Assembly: GCA_031292525.1 (NCBI GenBank)
Contig: JARLGY010000064.1
Location: 124,001 to 188,000, forward strand
Source of the DNA: Flavipsychrobacter sp.
GTDB taxonomy: Bacteria; Bacteroidota; Bacteroidia; Chitinophagales; Chitinophagaceae
Direction of reading: 5' to 3'
Length of the DNA: 64,000 nucleotides
Both the position numbers and the translations under genes were made by a program. Position 1 is the stretch's first letter. Every line of letters begins with the position of its first letter. Positions 49,265 through 64,000 of this stretch are shown one piece after another. The notes under the pieces were generated by a model. The model ran no database searches. It saw only the letters and a list, made by a program, of their open reading frames with translations, and was not told the origin of the DNA.

Positions 49265-51232
49265 TTATTTAGCTATCAGCAACCTGGTCTGTATTTTACC
49301 ATTTGCATTATTGTCAATATACACCAAGGTATAAACACCATTTGCAAAACGGGATACATTAATAGTTTGTACCTCATCATTGCAAGGCTGTGTAAGTGCA
49401 ACACGGCCTATTGCATCTATAAGCTGCAAAGTTCCTTTAACCTGCTGGAAACCAACAAGCGAAACAGTTACATTACCTGTTGTTGGATTTGGATAGGCAT
49501 CAATGGTAATATTTTTACCTGTTTCTATATTAGTTATACCAGCCTTAAACGGACTGCCACCGAAGTTTTGGGTAAACCCTGAACCAAAATCACCGGCTTT
49601 ATAATTGGGGACACTAAGAGAAAGCGCCGTACCCAACTTGTTTATTGTTAAAGAACCTGCATCAGATGTTAAACCTTCATACCAATATTCAGTTAATCCA
49701 TAACCATCTGGCGCAGTCATCTGGAACTGGTAGCAGTTCAGCCCAAGTGTAACAGTGTCAATATACATCGTCTGGTGTGTAGTGTTAGTACGTTGAGCAA
49801 GAACGTTGCCATCTGCGTCAACGATCTGCCACGTTTGCGCTACGGCATTGGGATCTATCGTTTGGCTGGTCTTCATTTTTACAACTATTTGGTTACCCCA
49901 AAGTGGTGCAGGTACAAACGTAGTTGTAATACTATTGTTCGATGCATCTGCATCAGCTTGCCCATTTACCTGTGTGATAGTAGCGATGAACTGCTGCGGT
50001 GTTGATGTAAGACCAGATAATGCCTGCATTTGCCATGGAGTGGCCAGGTAAATGATGGTATCCTGCAACGGCGCAAGAGTGCCACTCCAGGTATAATTAC
50101 CTATGTAACTCCCTACAACACCGTAATCAAAGCGAATAGATGTAATAGGTGTACTGCCGCTGTTGTGTACGTGCACAATGGGTTGACTGCAAATATTGTT
50201 ATACCTGGTATATTCATTCTGGTTGTTGGGTGCAAGCACTTCTTCAAGCGATGCATCGAGAGTCTTATTAATACCACTATAATAAACCGCCATAGCTTCT
50301 ACATCATAAGAAGGGTTACTGTTACCACTGCTGGACATAGCAGTGGTATACGATGGGAAGGTAACATTCACTGAATACGCGCCAGAAGTTACACCCAAAG
50401 GATTGTCAATTGTATTAACTAATGCACCTGGGCACCAGCCAGATCTATTGTAAGGCCATGACCCTGTTTGTGCTGCTACGGGATTCTGCCCGCAATTGTC
50501 TCTCCAAAAGTTTTGTGTAAATATATCACTGCCATTTACTATAACATCATAAGTATTAGGGCAAAACTCATTACAGTCATTAGCATCCTCTCCATGACCT
50601 GTTATACGCATTTTCATTTCAGTTGCCGCTGTATTAGCTGGTGCAGTCTCGCTTAGCGTAGCCACGTGATTTTCTATCGGGTCAGTAGGTTGACCATAGT
50701 TAAAGATGCCATGCCATAAGCGCTGCAAACCAATTACTGTCCTGTCTGGTGTACCTTCAATCAACGCAAAACGTACGTTTGCAGTGAACCCATAGCTATA
50801 TCCGCCATAACCAATACGTATAGTCGCACTGTCTTTCAGCAAACCCGCGTAGTCAGTTACATCATATACATAATCATGCGTCCATGTAAGTGGAAAATTG
50901 CTGCTGGTTGTGGCATAAGGCGTTATCAGCCTCGATATTTCCATTGTATCGCCGGTCTTCGTCATTACATAGTTGTTAACAATATAATCCCAACTACCAC
51001 AGTATTGAGAACCAGCAGGGCATGCATACTTACCAAGTGTAAATATCATGTATATCTTCCTGTAGGTTTTAGTAGAATTTGGAAAAAAAACTGTCGTATC
51101 GTAATTCGTCGTGTTTGCCATTTGTGCAATATTTGCCTGCACCCAGGTAGTATCGCCCGGGTTGGCTTTGGCAACAATACTGCACAAACTGCATACTATC
51201 ACTGCAAGAAATAAGTGAAAACGTTTTTTCAT
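49265..51232 (-). CDS. PNGase F-like secreted protein with T9SS sorting domain
   Basis: A 655-residue surface protein. Signal peptide at 1-23 (ending VAKA). Residues about 25-190 match the N-terminal domain of peptide-N-glycosidase F-type proteins (YRKIYMIFTLG..., QYCGSWDY) and about 195-330 the C-terminal domain: ITGHGEDANDCNEFC, ITQNFWRDNCGQNPV-type sequence and YNRSGWCPGALV. These two jelly rolls also occur in copper monooxygenases, but the cysteine pattern here fits the PNGase F side. PNGase F removes N-glycans from asparagine; catalytic acid residues cannot be confirmed by eye. A beta-rich domain (about 345-570) precedes the T9SS CTD (DAYPNPTTGNVTVSL, QLIDAIGRV, ANGVYTLVYI). Confidence 0.88.
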   Translation of the reverse strand: MKKRFHLFLAVIVCSLCSIVAKANPGDTTWVQANIAQMANTTNYDTTVFFPNSTKTYRKIYMIFTLGKYACPAGSQYCGSWDYIVNNYVMTKTGDTMEISRLITPYATTSSNFPLTWTHDYVYDVTDYAGLLKDSATIRIGYGGYSYGFTANVRFALIEGTPDRTVIGLQRLWHGIFNYGQPTDPIENHVATLSETAPANTAATEMKMRITGHGEDANDCNEFCPNTYDVIVNGSDIFTQNFWRDNCGQNPVAAQTGSWPYNRSGWCPGALVNTIDNPLGVTSGAYSVNVTFPSYTTAMSSSGNSNPSYDVEAMAVYYSGINKTLDASLEEVLAPNNQNEYTRYNNICSQPIVHVHNSGSTPITSIRFDYGVVGSYIGNYTWSGTLAPLQDTIIYLATPWQMQALSGLTSTPQQFIATITQVNGQADADASNNSITTTFVPAPLWGNQIVVKMKTSQTIDPNAVAQTWQIVDADGNVLAQRTNTTHQTMYIDTVTLGLNCYQFQMTAPDGYGLTEYWYEGLTSDAGSLTINKLGTALSLSVPNYKAGDFGSGFTQNFGGSPFKAGITNIETGKNITIDAYPNPTTGNVTVSLVGFQQVKGTLQLIDAIGRVALTQPCNDEVQTINVSRFANGVYTLVYIDNNANGKIQTRLLIAK

Positions 51233-54428: not shown

Positions 54429-57400
54429 ATGAAATTATCATGTACAAGACACGATTGGGCCACCAAACGAAATCTATCAACATTTAAAAACAAGGAAAAA
54501 GTAGTTAAGTTTTTCACAGTAGCGCTAATCTTATTGATTGGTCAGGTGGGACGGGCTCAAACGTCAACTATCTACAGTCAAAATTTCGGTACTGCAGTAG
54601 TTGCCTCGTCAAGTGTAGCCAGTACACTTTCAGGCTCTGGAATTACCTGGGCATTAAGCGGTGCACAATCAGGAAATCTATCCATAGGCACATCCGTTTC
54701 TTCTACCACCTATAGCGGCGCCAGTGGTGGTGGCGCATTTGAGGATGGCGCCGGAACTCCCGTAATAGGTACAGGTATTGCCACTATAACAGGCTTAAGT
54801 ACCGCAGGCTATACAGGTATAGCAATATCTTTCGGTGCCTATAAATCTTCAAGTTCAGAAACAACAACATTAACCATATCCTATAGTACCGACGGTGGTA
54901 CAACATGGAACTCTACTCCATTGCTCACGCTTGTTGCCGCCAGTGGACTTTCAAATACAACATTCACAAACCTTGAAACAATAAGCAATATATCAGGAAG
55001 CCCCCTCGACAACCAAAGCAATTTGGCCCTGCAGCTAAAATTTACGCGTACTGCTACAGGTGGTAGTTTTAGGATGGACGACCTCACTATAACAGGTAGT
55101 GTTTCTGGTTTAGCTCCTTCACCTGCATCTCTTACAGGCTTTAATTATGTGGCAGGCAATGGTCCTTCAACAGCACAATCTTTCACTTTAACCGGTTCTA
55201 ATCTTACAAGCGGCGGTGGCAATATCACGGTAAATGGTTCTACCGATTATGAAATATCAACCGATGCAGGTGGCACAGGTACATACCACAGTTCATTAAC
55301 TATCCCCTATACAGGTACCGCGTTAAGTGCAACAACGGTATGGGCACGTTTAAAATCAGGTTTATCTTCAGGCACTTACAATGAAAACCTCACTTATTCA
55401 GGTGGTGGCGTTTCTTCTGCTAACTATGCTGTAACTGGCAATGTAAATGCAGGCGATTATTACTCTGCAAGCACAGGCGATTTAAATACACTTGCAACCT
55501 GGTCTTCAAATACAAATGGTAGCGGTGGCAGCAATCCTGCTAATTTTACAACTACCGGCATTAATTTTCATCTGGCAAATAGCAATCCGGGTACATTAAC
55601 CGGTACTGCAGGTGGTTCAATAACTTTCTCAAGTAATATTACTGGTGCTGCAGCGGGTCCGCTTACATTTTTGGGCACCTCTACAACAAGTGCAGCTACA
55701 CTAGCATTAAACGGCACAAATACATTCACTGGCGGGCTTACTGTTGGTGGCGCAGCTACAACTAATATCGGCATACTTTCATTGCCGGTTAGCGCAACTT
55801 CAAGCACCTTACCTTCAACAGGTACAGTAACAATCAATGCAGGCAGCTGTTTACTAGTTGCAGCAACCGGCGTCAGCTATTCTAATCCGTTAATATTGAA
55901 TGGCGTAGGTAACAGTACCGATGCAGGTGCTATACGCGCGGGTGTTCCATCTTTAACTTTTACAGGCAATGTTACATTAGGCGCTACAACTTATATCTAT
56001 TCAACCGGCACTAACGTAAACAACATCAACCTGCAAGGGAATGTATCTGATGGTGGCAATGGTTATGTAATACAAAAACAAGGCGGCGGTAATCTGAATT
56101 TTACCAGCAGCACACCAAATACTTGGTCTGGTGGATTGATCATGGCTAACGGAAATGTTTCCGTTAGTTCTACATCATCTATAGGTAACGGACCATTATC
56201 CTTCCCGGGTAGCAATGCAACCACCCTTACGCTCAACAATACATCGCAAACAATAAGCAGTCTTTCCAGTGTTGCAGGTGCAGGTCTACAAAATATAGCT
56301 TTGCCTGCAGGTGGTACTTTAACCATTAATCAATCTGGTAATACAACGTTTGGCGATGCAGCGGCTGGCTTGGTTACTATTACAGATGGCACATCTACAA
56401 GTACGGTAGAAAAACAAGGTGTTGGCACGCTCACACTTACAACCGGCGGTACTTCGGGTACAAGCAACAACACGTTCGGTACATTAAAAATAACTGGGGG
56501 TACCGTTATTTTGAACCCATATACTACGGTAACAAGCGGTTCCACTTCACTTATTCTAAATGGAGGGTCTTTAAGCACTAGTGGTATCGCGTCAAGCGCA
56601 GCTACATTCACTACACTTCAGCTTACCGACAATTCTACTATATCTTTATCCGCAAGTTCACACACATTGTCGTTTGCCGCAAGCAGCGCAGTAAGCTGGA
56701 CATCGGGAAAAACACTGATAATCAATGGCTGGCAGGGTAATTATACCAACGGCAGTTCACCTACTGGTGGTAGAATATATGTAGGTTCAGCCTCTGGCAA
56801 TTTATCTACTGCACAATTGGCTCAGGTTTTATTCTACAACGGTACCGACTATTACTTTTCTACACAAACATCAAGCGGAGAAATTGTTCCTAACGGAATA
56901 GATAACAACGTCACAGACTATTATTCAAACAGTAACGGTTCTATCGATGTTTTATCTACTTGGAATACGAATACAGCTGGCAGCGGTGGGTCAGCACCAA
57001 CTTCTTTTACCGCCAACTACCAGGTATTTCACCTTGCCAATAGTAATGCGGCTGCTATTTCAGGCAGTAGCTGGACAGTAAGCGGGACAGGATCTGCAAT
57101 AACGCTCGACCAGGGTGTAGATCTTACAATTAGCTCAACTAAAGCTATAACAGGTACCATCAACCTGGGCGCGGGTAGAACGCTTACTATATCAAACGCT
57201 ACATTACCAACACTTGGCACAATGGCCGCAAATAGTACTGTTGACTATCTTAATATCAGTGGTGGCATCTCTACTATTTCAGCTACCACCTATGGTAATG
57301 TAATATTTGATAACACTTCATATACCCCGGGGACGGGACAAACCCTTAACCTTGCAGGCAATCTTACATTACAGAATAGCGCTTCAATAAACAGCGTATC

Positions 57401-59900
57401 ATCTTCAGCCGGCGTCACACTCAACATTGCAGGTACTGGCAACCAAACCATTACCGGCAACAGCAATACCATTACGCTGTACAGGTTAACCAACAATACA
57501 AATACTACCGGTACGCTTACACTTGCTGCAAGTACACCTTTAGCTGTGAAGGATAATATAACCCTTGTACAGAACGGAAGTAGCAACCAGTTCAGCGATG
57601 GAGGAAATACAATAACTGCTGGCAACAATTTGTACATGGATGGCAATGCCGCAGGATATAATTTTACAGGTACAATAATTCTGAACGCAGCTTCAGGATC
57701 TGCAAACGTAGGGGCTAACAGCGGCGGAGCTTCAGCAATTGCTGCATCTTTAAACAATTTCCAGGTCAACACTACCGGCACTGCAATTACAAATTTCTAT
57801 CCAACTTCGGGCGGAGGTACAGTTAATGTAAAAGGCACATTTACAGTGGCAGCGACCACGGCTAAGGCGATCGCCTTCAATGCAAATACCATAAATCTGG
57901 GTGGCAACTTCACCTACAACCCAACAACCGATCTCACAGCAACTACAGGTGGCTCTATTGGTTCTATCACGTTTAGTGGTACAGCAGCTCAAACATTTAC
58001 TTCAGCATTCGTTACCACACCTGGTATAAATTTCAATAACTGGACTGTTTCAAACACATCCTCCACCGTCACACTTTCTGCACCTGTTAAAGTTGTAATG
58101 ATTACAACTATTAACTCGGGCGCAAACCTTGTGTTGAACAATCGTCTTCAAAGCTCCGGCAGTGCCAGTGGCTTAGTAAACAACGGTACTATATCTGGTA
58201 CAACTGGTGAGTTCTACTTATCAGGAACTAGTCTGGTGCCAACAATCTCAGGTACTGGTTCTATAAGCGTCCTTGAAAATGCAAGAACAGCCAATATCAA
58301 CCTTACAAGCGGCACACAAACCATTACAGATAGTTTACTGTTAACAGGCGCTGGTGGCACACTTACTATATCATCTGGTGCCAATATCAATATTGCACCT
58401 GGTGCTGTTGTCTCTTGGCCAACCGCTGCAACTACAGTACTTGCATCTGGCACAAACGGACTAGTATTAAAATCTGACAACACGGGTACAGGTCGCATAG
58501 ACCAAATGCCTGCTTCAAGCTCAATTACAGGTACTGTAAGCATTGAGCGTTATATACCCGGCCAGCGTGGCTATCGTCTCTTGGGTCAGCCATATACTGC
58601 CAACCAGGACCTATCTGCATTAACTCCATACTTCGACATTACGGGTATTACAAGCGGTTCTACTTGCTCAGGCACCAGTGCATCTGCATTCAGTTATACG
58701 CCAGGTACTTCTCCTGCTTTTACAGGCATTACCTCTGGTACTGGCGCTTTCCCTGCTGCAACTAATACATCCGCATCACAGTCAAACGGTATATTAGCTT
58801 TCGTAAGGGGTGCTAAAGGTGAAGGTTGCAACAGTAACCTTAACTATACTCCATCAAATGTAACTGTCGTTACTTCAGGCACCATCAACCAGGGTACCAT
58901 CACACAAGTAGTACCTGCAAATGGCTGGAATCTGATAGCCAATCCATATCCTTCACAGATCGATTTGAGTAGCGTTACCAACATCAGCAGTCTCGATCAC
59001 ATCAAAATAGTGAATCCTGCAGGTCAGTTTGTAAATGTTCATACCAATGGCACACAGTATGCAGATGGTTCTTCAAGTACTATCATTCCGGTAAATGGTG
59101 CTTTCCTTGCACATAATGGTACAGGCTCTGATCTTACACTTACATTCAGTGAAACAAACAAAACAGCTAGTACACCGGTAAGCACAGTATTTAAAACAAC
59201 TAATACTTACCCTACCCTGCAACTGTCTGTTTACAACGGCAATTCCTTCTGGGATAACTGGACGTTGAACATGAAACCTGGCACCCGCGAAGTTGCAGGT
59301 GATGCAGGTGATTTGGATAAAATAAGCAACGCTCAGTTTGACATCTACTCATTATCTAAAGACAATAAATCCCTGAACTTTGATGCTCGCGATGCAGATA
59401 CCATAGCAGATGGAGACATCATACATATGGGTATCCGTTCTGTACCGCAAAGCAACTATACGCTTGAAGTAAGTGAATATACCCTGCCGGTAAATAAAAC
59501 GGTTTATCTGCACGATAAATACACCAGCACTTACACTTTATTAAGTAATGGCCTTACTTATTCATTTGCAGTAAACGCTGACACAGCAAGCCAGGGACAA
59601 AACAGGATGGAACTGGTATTTAATAGCGACAAGACCGGTGTAAACAACATTAGCAATAGTGCCCAAGGTATCACTCTAGTACCTAATCCTGCAATCCGCA
59701 ACATCACAGTAACCTATGCAACCATATTTGCAGGCAGTAAAGACATCAGCATTGTAAACTTAATGGGGCAGGTAGTGACTCACATAAGTACTGCTGAGAG
59801 TAGTTTAACAATATCTGTTGACAACCTGCCTGCTGGCATGTACATGCTGAAGACAATTGTAAATGGCAACAGTATTACTGAGCGTTTCATTAAAAACTAA
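54429..59900 (+). CDS. Giant T9SS-secreted beta-strand-repeat adhesin
   Basis: An 1823-residue surface protein. The signal sequence is unusually long: a basic N-region of about 27 residues, then FFTVALILLIGQVGRAQ. Residues about 45-220 form a jelly-roll-like domain (YSQNFGTA..., MDDLTITG), and 225-340 an Ig-like module. From about 345 to 1370 come low-complexity Ser/Thr/Gly/Asn beta-strand repeats of the autotransporter-associated type. Within them a module starting DYYS is present twice (near 343 and 830, each ending FHLANSN). Residues about 1375-1700 include a domain with YIPGQRGYRLLGQPY, common before T9SS tails. The C-terminal 75 residues are a T9SS type A domain (LVPNPAIRNITVTY, LPAGMYMLKTIV). 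It is likely a large adhesin or matrix fibre. The exosortase-substrate-like gene starts 33 nt after its stop. Confidence 0.93.
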   Translation: MKLSCTRHDWATKRNLSTFKNKEKVVKFFTVALILLIGQVGRAQTSTIYSQNFGTAVVASSSVASTLSGSGITWALSGAQSGNLSIGTSVSSTTYSGASGGGAFEDGAGTPVIGTGIATITGLSTAGYTGIAISFGAYKSSSSETTTLTISYSTDGGTTWNSTPLLTLVAASGLSNTTFTNLETISNISGSPLDNQSNLALQLKFTRTATGGSFRMDDLTITGSVSGLAPSPASLTGFNYVAGNGPSTAQSFTLTGSNLTSGGGNITVNGSTDYEISTDAGGTGTYHSSLTIPYTGTALSATTVWARLKSGLSSGTYNENLTYSGGGVSSANYAVTGNVNAGDYYSASTGDLNTLATWSSNTNGSGGSNPANFTTTGINFHLANSNPGTLTGTAGGSITFSSNITGAAAGPLTFLGTSTTSAATLALNGTNTFTGGLTVGGAATTNIGILSLPVSATSSTLPSTGTVTINAGSCLLVAATGVSYSNPLILNGVGNSTDAGAIRAGVPSLTFTGNVTLGATTYIYSTGTNVNNINLQGNVSDGGNGYVIQKQGGGNLNFTSSTPNTWSGGLIMANGNVSVSSTSSIGNGPLSFPGSNATTLTLNNTSQTISSLSSVAGAGLQNIALPAGGTLTINQSGNTTFGDAAAGLVTITDGTSTSTVEKQGVGTLTLTTGGTSGTSNNTFGTLKITGGTVILNPYTTVTSGSTSLILNGGSLSTSGIASSAATFTTLQLTDNSTISLSASSHTLSFAASSAVSWTSGKTLIINGWQGNYTNGSSPTGGRIYVGSASGNLSTAQLAQVLFYNGTDYYFSTQTSSGEIVPNGIDNNVTDYYSNSNGSIDVLSTWNTNTAGSGGSAPTSFTANYQVFHLANSNAAAISGSSWTVSGTGSAITLDQGVDLTISSTKAITGTINLGAGRTLTISNATLPTLGTMAANSTVDYLNISGGISTISATTYGNVIFDNTSYTPGTGQTLNLAGNLTLQNSASINSVSSSAGVTLNIAGTGNQTITGNSNTITLYRLTNNTNTTGTLTLAASTPLAVKDNITLVQNGSSNQFSDGGNTITAGNNLYMDGNAAGYNFTGTIILNAASGSANVGANSGGASAIAASLNNFQVNTTGTAITNFYPTSGGGTVNVKGTFTVAATTAKAIAFNANTINLGGNFTYNPTTDLTATTGGSIGSITFSGTAAQTFTSAFVTTPGINFNNWTVSNTSSTVTLSAPVKVVMITTINSGANLVLNNRLQSSGSASGLVNNGTISGTTGEFYLSGTSLVPTISGTGSISVLENARTANINLTSGTQTITDSLLLTGAGGTLTISSGANINIAPGAVVSWPTAATTVLASGTNGLVLKSDNTGTGRIDQMPASSSITGTVSIERYIPGQRGYRLLGQPYTANQDLSALTPYFDITGITSGSTCSGTSASAFSYTPGTSPAFTGITSGTGAFPAATNTSASQSNGILAFVRGAKGEGCNSNLNYTPSNVTVVTSGTINQGTITQVVPANGWNLIANPYPSQIDLSSVTNISSLDHIKIVNPAGQFVNVHTNGTQYADGSSSTIIPVNGAFLAHNGTGSDLTLTFSETNKTASTPVSTVFKTTNTYPTLQLSVYNGNSFWDNWTLNMKPGTREVAGDAGDLDKISNAQFDIYSLSKDNKSLNFDARDADTIADGDIIHMGIRSVPQSNYTLEVSEYTLPVNKTVYLHDKYTSTYTLLSNGLTYSFAVNADTASQGQNRMELVFNSDKTGVNNISNSAQGITLVPNPAIRNITVTYATIFAGSKDISIVNLMGQVVTHISTAESSLTISVDNLPAGMYMLKTIVNGNSITERFIKN
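55455..55586 (+). repeat. First copy of the DYYS...FHLANSN module in the adhesin
   Basis: Encodes a 44-residue unit with TWSSNTNGSGGSNP at its centre. It matches the unit at 56916-57048 in length and in most positions, consistent with internal duplication. Confidence 0.8.
56916..57048 (+). repeat. Second copy of the DYYS...FHLANSN module in the adhesin
   Basis: Encodes the matching unit with TWNTNTAGSGGSAP at its centre. The two copies are about 1.46 kb apart and have diverged at DNA level. Confidence 0.8.
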
Positions 59901-59933: not shown

Positions 59934-60146
59934 ATGAAATTCAGTAAAATATTATTGCTCCTTGCAGTTGCCGGTACTATCTCTTTTAAAATGATGGCAC
60001 AAGGTTCATTACCTGACGATCCGGATACAGCAGTACCATTGGATGGTGGCCTTAGTATAGCAATTGTAGCGGGTGTAAGCTACGGCGCCAAAAGATTAAT
60101 GAAAAACAGAAAAGTAAAAGAAGAAAGTAAAGCAAATAATAAATAG
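59934..60146 (+). CDS. Small PID-CTERM-like protein, candidate exosortase substrate
   Basis: A 70-residue protein. Signal peptide 1-22/23 (KILLLLAVAGTISFKMMAQ). The mature part is only about 12 residues (GSLPDDPDTAV), followed by the sorting-type motif PLDGG (35-39), a membrane helix (40-52, LSIAIVAGVSYGA) and a basic tail (KRLMKNRKVK). This three-part layout of motif, helix and basic cluster at the C-terminus is that of exosortase substrates, and PLDGG matches the PID-CTERM group of Bacteroidota. It begins 33 nt after the adhesin stop and ends at a strong terminator, so the two genes form a transcription unit. An exosortase gene lies 2.1 kb downstream. Alternatively it is a simple small membrane protein. 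Confidence 0.82.
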   Translation: MKFSKILLLLAVAGTISFKMMAQGSLPDDPDTAVPLDGGLSIAIVAGVSYGAKRLMKNRKVKEESKANNK

Positions 60147-60163
60147 TTAAGTAACTATATACA

Positions 60164-60202
60164 AACGCCCCATACATCAACGTATGGGGCGTTTTTTTTT
60201 AA
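60164..60202 (+). terminator. Strong terminator after the adhesin/PID-CTERM unit
   Basis: 13-bp perfect arms AAACGCCCCATAC (60164-60176) and GTATGGGGCGTTT (60183-60195), a 6-nt loop and a run of ten T ending at 60202. It may also serve the convergent gene ending at 60206. Confidence 0.97.
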
Positions 60203-60205
60203 GAT

Positions 60206-62098
60206 CTAGTTCAATAACATAGCGGGAACATCACCACCCAGTTGCTTTGCTTTTTGCGCATCTATATGCATCGAATCTGGCATGTTACGAAGTTTATAAA
60301 AATCAGATCTGGTAATATAATACAACGCAGCATTGCCATTCAGTGCTATAGCTTTATTCACATCGCGCATCCCGTCATCAAGCCTGTTCATATTACCTTC
60401 ACAAAGAGATCTATGATAATACATAAGGTCGTCATTAGAATCCAGTTGTTGGTAGCGGTCGTAATCCTGCATGGCAAGATCATATTTCTTGATGTAAAAA
60501 TAAGTCCATGCCCGTTTCTCCAAAGCGTCCTTCATATCTGGCTGCAAGGCTAGTGCTTGTGTATAGTTGCTGATGCTTGTAGCATACATCTTTGTAAACT
60601 CACAAGCCACACCATGATTGACTAATAAATTTGCCGTTGTTCTAACTATTGGCCTTCCATCCATAGAATCCTTAGCAATTGCTGTATCCAGGTATTTGAG
60701 TGGCAGTGTATTAAACTGGGGATCATTTACATCCAGGTACGGATCAGGCAAATTATATTGTAGTATATCTGTATAATATTCTGCCATCTGGTAATACCCA
60801 TAGTAGTCGTTCGGCTTATCGTCTATGTAATGTTGCCACAGGGCCACGCTGTTTCGCCATACCTTACTTTGATTATAGGCCATAAAAGCAAAAAGCACAC
60901 AGTAGAGCCCCAACACAATATTGATATGAAACCTGTATCTGGGCAATTGCAGCATAGTCCATTCATAAGCCTTGGCAACCCAAAAAAACAACCCTATATA
61001 AGCTATGTAAGTATATCTGTCAGCAAGAAAGGTACTGCCCGATGCTACTATCTGTAATACAAAAATTACATTGAATGTAAAAAAAGCAAGCGCAAACAAT
61101 ACAATGGTATTCCGCTTCGCTTTCCAGGTAATCAAAACTACTATTGCAGGCACAAGTACCAGGCACAGATAGGCCATAATAGGCACATGAAGAGGAAAGG
61201 CATAATAGGCAAGCATCTGGTATGGATAAACAAACTTTACCACATAAACGGCATATGCATACGCCCCCAACGCCAGCTTTTGTAAAACGTTATAATGTAC
61301 GAGTACCTCATCAGAACCTATCACCTTCTGGCTGGTAAGTATATACACATTAACAACCCCAAACGCGATAGACAAAAGCCACCAGGGCAGTTTTTCAAGT
61401 ATTAATGTTTTGGGGGTGTTCCATTTCCTTTTAAAGTAAACATCCAAAACCACCAAACACAACGGCAGAGTAACAGCCTGCACCTTCGCAAAACACGACA
61501 ATATAAAACACAATAGGGCACAGAGGTACCAGGTTATTTTATGCCTATCCCATTTTATGTAATTAATGTAAGCCAGCAAGGAAAGCAAGAAGAAAAATCC
61601 ATATAAAACATCCTTACGTTCTGTCACCCACGCTACAGATTCCACTCGCATAGGATGAAGGCCAAATAATAGCGCACCTAAGAAAGCCGCCCATTTCCCA
61701 ACGCCCATTTTTCTGAAAAGAAAAAACGCACATACTGTCGTACACAAATGAAGCAGCAAATTATCCAGATGGAATATAAAGGGCGAGGATAAAGTGTCCT
61801 GTGCAAAAAAGAAGTGTTCAATGGCATATGTAAAGGAAGTAAGTGGTATATAATTACCTATCGCATCAGCTGTGAATAAATGCAATACCCCACTCCAGCT
61901 CCAATCCTGCCCAAATTTGCTGAGTGCTACATTTCTCAGCAAATATTGAGGATCATCATAATCAACAAAATAAGCAGACAACGTAGGATAAAATACAAGA
62001 AAAGTAAGCCCCACCAGAAGCAATAGAAGCATCCAGGTTGCGGGCTGCTTACTAATAATACTGTTACTTTTTATATCATGTGGCGTACCTGTTATCAT
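60206..62098 (-). CDS. TMTC-like GT-C glycosyltransferase with C-terminal TPR repeats
   Basis: A 630-residue membrane protein. About eleven helices (about 22-410) carry the signatures of the TMTC/PMT-related group: the acidic loop YFVDYDDPQYLLRN, the segment LHPMRVESVAWVTERKDVLYG (about 150-172), and TFLADRYTYIAYIGLFF. The C-terminal 210 residues hold TPR repeats (YTQALALQPDMKDALEKRAWTYFYIKKYDLAMQDY and similar). Eukaryotic TMTC proteins O-mannosylate cadherins; bacterial relatives probably glycosylate exported proteins, but this is unproven. It is divergent from the exosortase gene and converges on the adhesin unit. A second member is at 63223. Confidence 0.88.
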   Translation of the reverse strand: MITGTPHDIKSNSIISKQPATWMLLLLLVGLTFLVFYPTLSAYFVDYDDPQYLLRNVALSKFGQDWSWSGVLHLFTADAIGNYIPLTSFTYAIEHFFFAQDTLSSPFIFHLDNLLLHLCTTVCAFFLFRKMGVGKWAAFLGALLFGLHPMRVESVAWVTERKDVLYGFFFLLSLLAYINYIKWDRHKITWYLCALLCFILSCFAKVQAVTLPLCLVVLDVYFKRKWNTPKTLILEKLPWWLLSIAFGVVNVYILTSQKVIGSDEVLVHYNVLQKLALGAYAYAVYVVKFVYPYQMLAYYAFPLHVPIMAYLCLVLVPAIVVLITWKAKRNTIVLFALAFFTFNVIFVLQIVASGSTFLADRYTYIAYIGLFFWVAKAYEWTMLQLPRYRFHINIVLGLYCVLFAFMAYNQSKVWRNSVALWQHYIDDKPNDYYGYYQMAEYYTDILQYNLPDPYLDVNDPQFNTLPLKYLDTAIAKDSMDGRPIVRTTANLLVNHGVACEFTKMYATSISNYTQALALQPDMKDALEKRAWTYFYIKKYDLAMQDYDRYQQLDSNDDLMYYHRSLCEGNMNRLDDGMRDVNKAIALNGNAALYYITRSDFYKLRNMPDSMHIDAQKAKQLGGDVPAMLLN

Positions 62099-62224: not shown

Positions 62225-62749
62225 ATGAGTCTAGCCTTAAATCAAATACCCAAGTCAGTAAAAACCTTTCTGTTTAGAGCCATATTGCTTTTTGCAGGGT
62301 GGAAACTGCTTTATGTATTATGGCTTCAGCCCATCAACATTCCCGATAGTCAACTTACAGCGCTCATTGTTTCAGGCAGTACAAAGTTGCTATCCCTGTT
62401 TTACCCGGCTGCATATTATATATATCATACCATATTTACAAGTGCGGGCAAAGGTGTACGTGTTGAAGACCATTGCAATGGCCTTGAGGTAATGGTTTTA
62501 TATGCAGGTTTCATTATAGCAATGCCAACTGTTAAGAAAAATATATGGCGTAAACTCGCTTACCTGGTGGGTGGTGTCGTAGTTATCTTTTTACTCAATA
62601 TTATACGTTGCGCAAGCCTCACATGGATCATATACAACCATAAAGATCTTTTTGTCATCTCCCATAAGTATGTTTTTAGCCTGTTAGTATACGGGGCAAT
62701 GGCAGGCATGTGGGTCATCTATTGCAAAGACAGGCGTTATGTCGCGTAA
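62225..62749 (+). CDS. xrtX: Exosortase/archaeosortase family protein (probable XrtX type)
   Basis: A 174-residue integral membrane transpeptidase-like protein with about five or six helices. The three catalytic residues of exosortases are present in order: Cys84 in EDHCNGLEVM, Arg128 in NIIRCASLTW, and His147 in ISHKYVF. These enzymes cut a C-terminal signal of the motif-helix-basic type and are thought to attach the protein to a surface glycan or lipid. The short length and the small downstream partner fit the XrtX group of Bacteroidota; that subgroup name is an inference. The next gene overlaps by 11 nt. The nearest candidate substrate is the PLDGG protein at 59934. Confidence 0.9.
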   Translation: MSLALNQIPKSVKTFLFRAILLFAGWKLLYVLWLQPINIPDSQLTALIVSGSTKLLSLFYPAAYYIYHTIFTSAGKGVRVEDHCNGLEVMVLYAGFIIAMPTVKKNIWRKLAYLVGGVVVIFLLNIIRCASLTWIIYNHKDLFVISHKYVFSLLVYGAMAGMWVIYCKDRRYVA

Positions 62750-63119
62750 AGTTCGGTTCGTTTGCGCGGTCATTATTATTATCCTTATCTCCTGGTTCGA
62801 TTTTCAGTACCTGTCTCAGTTTCCACACAGCTTCCCTATATCAGAAAACATACGCCGCATCAGTCACCTGCTGTTACTTATAGCTGTTATGCTAGTTGGT
62901 GGCTTCGCATGGGCAAAAAGCCCTGTTGAGTGGGTCCGCGCGCTTTGGTGGTATGCTTACCTGTTTGCTTTAGCAGTGCTTTTCTTTACAGGCTTATTGG
63001 CACACTTCATGTACATTCCATACAATGTCCTCTACGCTTTCTACAAATTCAGGATATTTTTCTGTAGTCCTTTACCGTTTTTCATTTTATACATCTTTTC
63101 AAAGCTAAAGAAGAACTAA
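62739..63119 (+). CDS. Exosortase-associated small membrane protein
   Basis: A 126-residue protein with four membrane helices (about 5-22, 40-58, 68-88, 108-122). It has no enzymatic motif. It overlaps the exosortase gene by 11 nt, so the two are translated together. It fits the size and topology of the membrane protein that accompanies XrtX in other Bacteroidota, whose role is unknown. Alone it would be called hypothetical; the assignment depends on its neighbour. Confidence 0.8.
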   Translation: MSRKVRFVCAVIIIILISWFDFQYLSQFPHSFPISENIRRISHLLLLIAVMLVGGFAWAKSPVEWVRALWWYAYLFALAVLFFTGLLAHFMYIPYNVLYAFYKFRIFFCSPLPFFILYIFSKLKKN

Positions 63120-63222: not shown

Positions 63223-64000
63223 TTATTGCAACCAGCTACTATCTATATTCAACCCCAGCTCTTTAGCCTTCATTGCATCCATCCGCGCAGAGTCAGTAAC
63301 GCTCAACAGCTTGTACAGCTTAGCCCTTGTAAAATAATAATTACCCTCTGCCGTATCTAATTGTATAGCAACGGTCATGTCGCTAATTGCAGCTCTGTAT
63401 AAGCCTGTATGCCCTTCGCAAAGCGCACAACGATAATAGGCGCCATCATTTTTAGGGTTGAATTTTATACACTGCCTGTAATCCGCCAATGCAAGATCAT
63501 AGTTCTTGGTGTTATAGTAAGTGAGTGCTCTGTTCAAATACCCTTCTTTTTCATTAGGCTCTACTGCTATAGCTCGGGATAGGTTCTCTATAGCTTTGTC
63601 GTAAATTTTCAAATACCCATAAGCAGTTCCCAACCCTTCAAATATGCCAAACGAGATACTCTTTACCGGCCTCTGATTAAATGAATCAATATCACTCGCA
63701 ATGATCAAGTTCTTCACAGTTGTTTTAGCCAACTCATCTGGTTTCATTTTAATACCTGTAGTATCATATTCACCCAGCGCGGCCTTCATCGTAAAGTCTC
63801 CAAGAGATACATAATTGAAATAATTATCGGGCTGTACCTTAATTGCATGAGACCATAACGTTACTGTATTCTGCCAAACCTTTATCTGATTGGTTGTTAG
63901 AATAATAAAGAAGATCACATAAATAGTTAGCCCCGCATATATTGCAGGTTTGGCGTCAGCAAAGCGCTTCACTGTATATTCATAGGTTTTAGCCACTATA
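63223..64000 (-). CDS. TMTC-like GT-C/TPR protein, C-terminal part (cut by window edge)
   Basis: The frame is open to the window end; 258 codons are visible, without a true start. The sequence is paralogous to the C-terminal 40 percent of the gene at 60206. The last membrane helix (AGLTIYVIFFIILTT) is followed by NQIKVWQNTVTLWSHAIKVQPDNYFNYVSLGDF and then TPR units (YGYLKIYDKAIENLSRAIAVEPNEKEGYLNRALTYYNTKNYDLALADY and following), ending DSSWLQ. The N-terminal transferase part must lie past 64000. Both paralogs flank the exosortase pair. Confidence 0.88.
   Translation of the reverse strand, partial: IVAKTYEYTVKRFADAKPAIYAGLTIYVIFFIILTTNQIKVWQNTVTLWSHAIKVQPDNYFNYVSLGDFTMKAALGEYDTTGIKMKPDELAKTTVKNLIIASDIDSFNQRPVKSISFGIFEGLGTAYGYLKIYDKAIENLSRAIAVEPNEKEGYLNRALTYYNTKNYDLALADYRQCIKFNPKNDGAYYRCALCEGHTGLYRAAISDMTVAIQLDTAEGNYYFTRAKLYKLLSVTDSARMDAMKAKELGLNIDSSWLQ

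Follow-up and report, generated by a model that had tools for sequence, protein, structure and literature searches.

The stretch of DNA analysed here, which we call the window (64,000 nucleotides in full), contains at 59934..60146 (+) an intact ATG open reading frame for a micro-protein of 70 amino acids, whose residues 34-58 match the NCBIfam model NF046080 (PID_CTERM) at 33.3 bits, with a cut-off of 26. The product appears to begin with a signal peptide (residues 1-22, 59934..59999, +) that ends in KMMA|Q and would be cut before Q23; here and throughout, signal-peptide sites are pattern calls, made without a trained predictor. A mature spacer of 12 residues, QGSLPDDPDTAV (residues 23-34, 60000..60035, +), leads into the sorting signal at 60036..60113 (+), in which PLDGG occupies residues 35-39, the hydrophobic stretch of a short helix residues 40-52, and the basic cluster KRLMKNRK residues 53-60. 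Residues 35-60 have the PID-CTERM design, that is, P-x-D-G-G, a hydrophobic helix and a basic cluster at the C-terminus. An earlier, sequence-only reading had taken the protein for an exosortase substrate, and had named a profile search against the PID-CTERM model as the check on this, a missing match counting against the assignment; the match lies above the cut-off, and the family assignment holds. The same reading described PLDGG, the helix and KRLMKNRK correctly, and its account of the C-terminus has to be extended by a charged 10-residue tail, VKEESKANNK, which follows the basic cluster and which it did not mention. No Pfam model matched the 70-aa protein at gathering score, and a search of PDB sequences gave no credible match (best E-values 0.99 and 1.2). 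A chance open reading frame is ruled out, because the source genome contains nine PID_CTERM matches in short frames and the sequence is conserved among relatives. Directly 3' of the gene lies an intrinsic-terminator-like hairpin of 13 pairs followed by a T run (60163..60194, +).

Immediately upstream, 54429..59900 (+) encodes an 1823-aa type A cargo of the type IX secretion system (T9SS; TIGR04183 46.6 bits, cut-off 23), with its stop 33 nt before the micro-protein start, and no terminator-like site was reported on the + strand between the two genes. The type A C-terminal sorting domain of this cargo (CTD, Por_Secre_tail; residues 1752-1823, 59682..59897, +) is its only Pfam match at gathering score. 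In front of the CTD, at 58218..59657 (+, approximate limits), lies a module that profile comparison places with RemA and RemZ, and the window copy of this module matches no Pfam or NCBIfam model. The gene at 49265-51232 (-) encodes a further protein with a T9SS tail, which also carries a peptide-N-glycosidase F C-terminal domain (PF09113, E 7e-19).

An exosortase gene (62225..62749, +) begins 2.1 kb downstream of the micro-protein gene and encodes 174 aa with a Cys-Arg-His triad, C84/R128/H147 (TIGR04178 58.1 bits, cut-off 23). In an alignment of 25 rows, one of which is an 8-residue mis-cut fragment, C84 and R128 are identical in 24 and H147 in 23. The best specific model is exosortase X (NF046081), at 115.1 bits; since this is below the cut-off of 170, we call the enzyme XrtX-like only. 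The source genome has three exosortases above the TIGR04178 cut-off, and the other two score 104.8 and 118.4 bits against the exosortase X model. Overlapping the exosortase stop, 62739..63119 (+) encodes a 126-aa protein, membrane-like by eye, with relatives beside other exosortases. Between two cassettes, the exosortase has on its flanks three related membrane proteins that end in TPR repeats, encoded at 60206-62098 (-), 63223-63999 (-, truncated where the window stops) and L019:5132-7033 (-), the latter two being 41% and 48% identical to the 60206-62098 copy. They look like GT-C glycosyltransferases of the TMTC kind, with no model match, and relatives were found in none of the loci of other genomes that were compared.

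The source genome (G000, in which the window is C34:124001-188000) has nine PID_CTERM matches above the cut-off, in open frames of 73-99 aa, together with one truncated copy below it. Two forms can be distinguished. Form 1 (AQG..P.DPD..VPLDGGLSIAIVAGVSYGAKRLMK) comprises four copies, including that of the window, and form 2, a glycine-rich type with P[IL]DGG, comprises five. The truncated copy is of form 1, lies close upstream of an intact cassette (C60:206671-206724; L010, L021), and is probably a remnant. The 117 full-length members, drawn from many genomes, have a median length of 69 aa, and 114 of them contain P-x-D-G-G; in the 116 members with a called signal-peptidase site, the motif lies a median of 13 residues beyond that site (quartiles 11-17), with a spacer rich in Gly, Pro and Asp, and Gln follows the site directly in 93. 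The expectation of a mature part of about a dozen residues was thus supported, the motif coming in addition, and because a mature part of this size is usual across the family, the micro-protein is no conventional cargo. Two possible marks of the spacer were rejected as general features: DTA of the window copy, which we took for an O-glycosylation motif, is replaced by DTS in two and DEA in one of the other three intact form 1 copies, and a cysteine precedes PIDGG in some of the glycine-rich copies only.

To describe conservation by segment, we used 18 non-overlapping cross-genome pairs, chosen at ≥60% identity. Amino-acid identity was highest in motif plus helix (92%), followed by the spacer (84%), the signal peptide (60%) and the tail (53%), and pN/pS was 0.10, 0.19, 0.39 and 0.45, respectively, values of which the ranking alone is usable because synonymous change is near saturation. 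From the segment identities and this ranking, the dozen mature residues look as though they have been kept by selection.

The neighbours of genes with PID_CTERM matches (PID genes) were then counted. One search covered 60 genomes of the same family, 22 of which had a match at E ≤ 0.001 (21 above the cut-off), and a second covered 296 Bacteroidota genomes of at least 90% completeness, 48 of which had a match at E ≤ 1e-4. Together these gave 199 matches (66 plus 146, minus 13 in both, counted by hand), and surroundings were taken for 196; the three left out are two fragments at contig starts in G163 and a match below the cut-off in G047. From these, 178 distinct PID places were recovered, the remainder lying below the local model, in open frames longer than 200 aa, or being duplicates; four places are at contig edges, which leaves 174.

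Eight of the nine PID genes of the source genome immediately follow a T9SS cargo gene of the same strand, and the ninth stands in tandem behind another PID gene. T9SS tails are common in this genome (227 candidates, 150 of them scored), and we therefore examined chance pairing, for which the probability of eight out of eight is ∼2e-10, with 227 tails among an estimated ∼3800 genes. Over all non-edge places, a same-strand T9SS cargo ends just 5' of the PID gene in 141 of 174; 132 of these cargos have both CTD and module, seven the CTD only, and two the module only. On the 3' side, a CTD gene was found in 2/178 places, and 12/178 places precede an exosortase gene. The places fetched after the local models had been built, which are independent of model building, had a cargo 5' in 47 of 54 cases, with CTD plus module in 44. 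The curated model TIGR04183 matched 90 of the 111 5' neighbours scanned, compared with at most 3/76 on the 3' side, where 11/76 were exosortases; these 76 are the neighbours with a stop inside the fetched stretch, from 118 non-PID 3' neighbours. A first pass over 126 places, with cruder gene calls and looser merging of duplicates, had given 89 same-strand CTD neighbours, 16 same-strand neighbours lacking a CTD, 10 on the opposite strand, eight places with no gene, and three tandem copies, and on the 3' side one same-strand and one opposite-strand CTD among 118 places with a non-PID gene. The order and direction of the pair were kept in 40 of the 52 first-pass genomes, which belong to several families. 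In a set of 23 loci from named genomes, which may overlap the census genomes, a module cargo lay upstream in 12 and a CTD only in one more; several of the remaining loci have little or no upstream sequence, and no cargo was found upstream of the Tamlana, Algibacter and Yeosuana copies in this set. In the census, 33 of 174 PID genes had no adjoining cargo that we could find, and some of these precede an exosortase gene while others stand beside other genes.

The pairing bears directly on the role that the sequence-only reading had proposed, in which an exosortase would turn the micro-protein into an acceptor, primer or lipid/glycan anchor of general use, untied to any one cargo. Such a role would suit the tiny mature part, the presence of an exosortase in 48/48 PID-positive genomes of the phylum sample, the PID copies that several genomes carry immediately in front of an exosortase gene, and the presumed glycosyltransferase likeness of the TPR proteins that flank the window exosortase. 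It fits poorly with the position of 141/174 copies behind T9SS cargos, most of which belong to one class, and with genomes that hold up to 11 PID_CTERM matches in which PID and cargo similarity are correlated (see below). Because 141/174 PID genes follow a type A cargo gene, 132 with CTD plus module, we favour a cargo-dedicated partner, and regard a free-standing acceptor or primer as less likely, indeed improbable. The suggested anchor function is not supported as that of a free-standing lipid/glycan anchor, and may apply in the narrower sense of an anchor dedicated to the neighbouring cargo.

The partner cargos are of a particular kind. Beyond the CTD itself, the eight partners of the source genome have in common a stretch of ∼450 aa before it, and a model built from these eight matched 44/81 partners elsewhere and 1/25 non-partner T9SS loci of the source genome. 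After iteration on partner cargos, the model matched 87/89 partners, a figure that is not independent for that reason, and still 1/25 non-partners. The 25 controls are the 30 best-scoring T9SS loci of the source genome minus one at a contig edge and four partners, rather than a random draw. Compared with PDB sequences, a module profile of 39 rows that include the window copy (profile A3) found RemA (E 1.5e-32) and RemZ (E 4.8e-32) of Flavobacterium johnsoniae. RemA is described as a gliding adhesin and RemZ as its homologue, both being type A T9SS substrates (PMC10994853, PMC12618676), and the RemZ structure as well resolved for the CTD only (PMC10994853). The Asn-Pro of GNPYxSxID is invariant in the 39 rows. 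No Pfam or NCBIfam model was common to the modules, with sporadic matches in single members and fn3 in two. AlphaFold2 predicted an all-beta structure for the module together with the CTD (mean pLDDT 82.7, pTM 0.69), for which Foldseek returned five matches at E ≤ 0.001. Three of these are sorting domains of T9SS proteins (8qb1 chains A and C, 8glk), and the remaining two, to an S-layer protein and a beta-glucuronidase, were rejected as a common fold at TM-scores of 0.09-0.13 and rmsd of 19-31.

Partners in the source genome are also long: their open frames have a median of 1382 aa, and those of the 142 remaining scored T9SS genes a median of 593 aa (p 0.00014). This size, together with the same pairing data and with the motif and helix being the best conserved segment (92% identity), would suit an export or assembly factor, a micro-protein that holds the large adhesin at the inner membrane or in the periplasm for T9SS loading, and that the exosortase merely releases or removes, so that it would have no part at the surface. 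Against this idea, the spacer is conserved as well (84%), a constraint not expected of a pure membrane tether, and several partners elsewhere are short, with open frames of ∼680-750 aa, so that cargo size alone does not require an export factor. We consider this unlikely, while giving it more weight than the free-standing acceptor.

Looking from the cargo side, we found a PID gene behind 23 of 44 module cargos in five genomes, in which 23 of 25 PID genes (counted by hand) lie behind a module cargo. In the source genome, by counts read by eye from match lists, PID genes follow 8/13 module cargos compared with 0/137 other scored T9SS tails. The PID partner thus shows a strong preference for module cargos and, given 23/44, is not obligatory. 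Within the 13 genomes that have three or more cassettes, similarity between PID proteins correlated with similarity between the CTDs of their cargos (pooled r 0.78) and between the modules (0.75), with a permutation p of 0.0005 for both; G194 showed no correlation and G102 a weak one. Duplication of whole cassettes would also give this correlation, as expected if cargo and micro-protein merely duplicate and move as a block with no function in common, an idea that gains from the roughly one half of module cargos in the five genomes that have no PID gene. Such hitch-hiking sits badly with an order and direction kept across several families (40/52 genomes), with a conserved spacer and helix, and with the finding, given below, of no PID gene in any of 35 exosortase-less genomes that have the module; we judge it to have little chance of being the whole account.

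Exosortases were detected in 112 of the 296 genomes, and all 48 PID-positive genomes are among them (hypergeometric 2e-24, from counts read by eye and uncorrected for phylogeny). The module was found at E ≤ 1e-5 in 109 genomes, the number of modules per genome being a lower bound, and PID genes occur in 46 of the 74 such genomes with an exosortase and in 0 of the 35 lacking one. Among these 35, 18 have strong module matches (E below 1e-30) and are likewise free of PID genes, and the other 17 have weak matches (E above 1e-30) that may not be true modules. Two PID-positive genomes had no module match (G162, G326). In the 60-genome set, 19 genomes had both PID and exosortase, three PID only, and four exosortase only, and since one of the PID-only genomes, G024, is rated 100% complete, a strict dependence on exosortase is weakened. 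These three same-family genomes, and the charged tail of the window copy beyond the basic cluster, would be in line with an uncut small membrane protein in which both the signal-peptide-like N-terminus and the C-terminal helix stay in place with no exosortase step. The 48/48 co-occurrence in the phylum sample speaks against an uncut protein, as do the motif in 114/117 full-length members and the copies directly before exosortase genes, and we hold it to be quite improbable.

Thirty further module-cargo loci were read, 23 from genomes with an exosortase and no PID_CTERM match, five from exosortase-less genomes, and two from the PID-positive genome G086. In 3 of the 23, a small protein of the same design, missed by NF046080, lies 3' of the cargo (L201, L204, L215), the variant motif being PISG(I/V)EW in two genomes (G241, G201) and of a PIHF form in the third (G109); we regard these neighbours as a candidate extension of the PID_CTERM family. 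The other 20 loci, nine of them from genus g70, which we take to be Flavobacterium as a guess, had no small neighbour of this design, and some have other short frames. The five loci from exosortase-less genomes also had no such neighbour.

We propose that the micro-protein is the second half of a cassette consisting of a RemA-like T9SS type A adhesin and a micro-protein, and that it acts as an exosortase-processed partner dedicated to the adjoining adhesin, probably as a retention or anchor factor. We give this proposal a probability of roughly 0.45. The gene pairing and its direction, the preference for module cargos, the co-occurrence with exosortases, the matched similarities within genomes and the conserved mature stretch are observations; the steps that follow are inferred. 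With only 33 nt separating the two genes and a terminator-like hairpin after the second, cargo and micro-protein would be made from one transcript. To judge by its N-terminus, the micro-protein would pass through Sec and lose its signal peptide, after which the C-terminal helix would hold it in the inner membrane for cleavage by an XrtX-like exosortase, at P-[ILV]-D-G-G or close to it. The new C-terminus might then be joined to a carrier, lipid or glycan, as in the proposed exosortase pathway and in keeping with the 48/48 co-occurrence. The resulting conjugate of ∼12-17 residues, rich in Gly, Pro and Asp, could finally retain, anchor or dock its own adhesin at the cell envelope after T9SS export, in a manner roughly comparable to that of SprF, which is encoded downstream, for type B adhesins. 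Several observations count against a dedicated partner. Only 23/44 module cargos of five genomes have a PID gene behind them, 33/174 PID genes have no adjoining cargo found, and 20/23 loci of exosortase-positive genomes that lack PID_CTERM have no such neighbour, nine of these loci being in g70, presumably the very genus in which RemA of F. johnsoniae works. Three genomes have PID and no exosortase match, the window exosortase scores below the XrtX cut-off, and cassette duplication could yield the similarity correlation, which is absent in G194.

The window pair can be compared with several known systems. As in PID-CTERM with exosortase X (NF046080/NF046081), it has a sorting signal above the cut-off and a related exosortase 2.1 kb away, and differs in that this exosortase is below the XrtX cut-off. 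PEP-CTERM substrates usually have larger extracellular parts. With the PEP-CTERM/EpsH systems the window shares a signal peptide, a short motif, a helix, a basic end, and a Cys-Arg-His exosortase, whereas its substrate has no room for a domain and lies behind a T9SS cargo. The GlyGly-CTERM/rhombosortase system uses another protease class (rhomboid), and we know of no micro-protein substrates for it. PEP-CTERM/EpsH systems are reported to occur with exopolysaccharide gene clusters (PMC10936215, PMC7468200), and in the GlyGly-CTERM system a C-terminal helix signal with GG is described as being cut and joined to a moiety needed for surface anchorage (PMC7468200).

The closest likeness in gene order is to SprB/SprF. 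For type B T9SS adhesins, a cognate SprF-like shuttle is described as often encoded directly downstream and as securing localization (PMC12618676), SprF itself being presented as carrier and surface anchor of SprB (PMC12635249). As described there, a T9SS adhesin gene is likewise followed by a dedicated partner gene, with several pairs per genome; unlike the window partner, SprF is an outer-membrane carrier of the PorP/SprF type for type B domains, whereas the window combines a type A cargo with a micro-protein that bears an exosortase signal. RemA and RemZ of F. johnsoniae resemble the window cargo as type A substrates with the same preceding module of ∼430 aa, by profile match. Type A substrates are all said to use PorV, and the RemA CTD to provide both anchoring and release (PMC12618676). 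A broader and more tentative version of our proposal, which we think somewhat doubtful, is that PID-CTERM micro-proteins do for type A cargos what SprF does for type B, as exosortase-made, cargo-specific surface anchors, and that exosortase sorting and T9SS, so far treated as separate envelope systems, form one display pathway for RemA-like adhesins in Bacteroidota. If so, what the exosortase makes would be the anchor itself, in the form of a short peptide conjugate, rather than a sorted protein.

An independent link between exosortase and T9SS phenotypes comes from F. johnsoniae, in which deletions of xrtF and of its neighbour Fjoh_1449 are listed with the same colonization, biofilm and zorb entries as deletion of porU (PMC10936215). 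In the same source, the xrtF results are presented as the first of an empirical kind, and the question of substrates is deferred to later studies. In the literature searched, the term PID-CTERM was not found, and the portions covering exosortases, type IX secretion and Flavobacterium contained no PID/T9SS pairing or RemA-like partners; the curator notes of NF046080, which lie outside that search, may mention such a context. The component families are known, and the link between a PID-CTERM micro-protein and T9SS cargo was not found in that literature. Little is known of exosortase roles in Bacteroidota, and the literature consulted (PMC12618676) does not settle how type A adhesins such as RemA stay on the surface before release. 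The pairing suggests that the tiny peptide serves the adjoining adhesin, and a recurrent gene pair of this kind supplies a candidate client for each exosortase micro-substrate, which joins the two questions.

Some further PID-like sequences were seen along the way. Flavobacteriaceae PID proteins with long Lys/Ser/Asp-rich spacers had no cargo found adjoining (L244, L246, L247, L252), and three PID genes (L239, L247, L252) precede an open frame whose start looks exosortase-like by eye. A match of 995 aa, discarded as a PID protein, was identified as a long MSEP-CTERM protein (G221:C1:2167132, L200; TIGR04286, 743 bits), the tail of which is PID-like and scores 28.8 bits, above the PID_CTERM cut-off. 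Directly before the C4 exosortase, L022:8624-8989 encodes a 121-aa protein that has no NCBIfam match and ends in a hydrophobic stretch and a basic end, making it a candidate for a new sorting signal.
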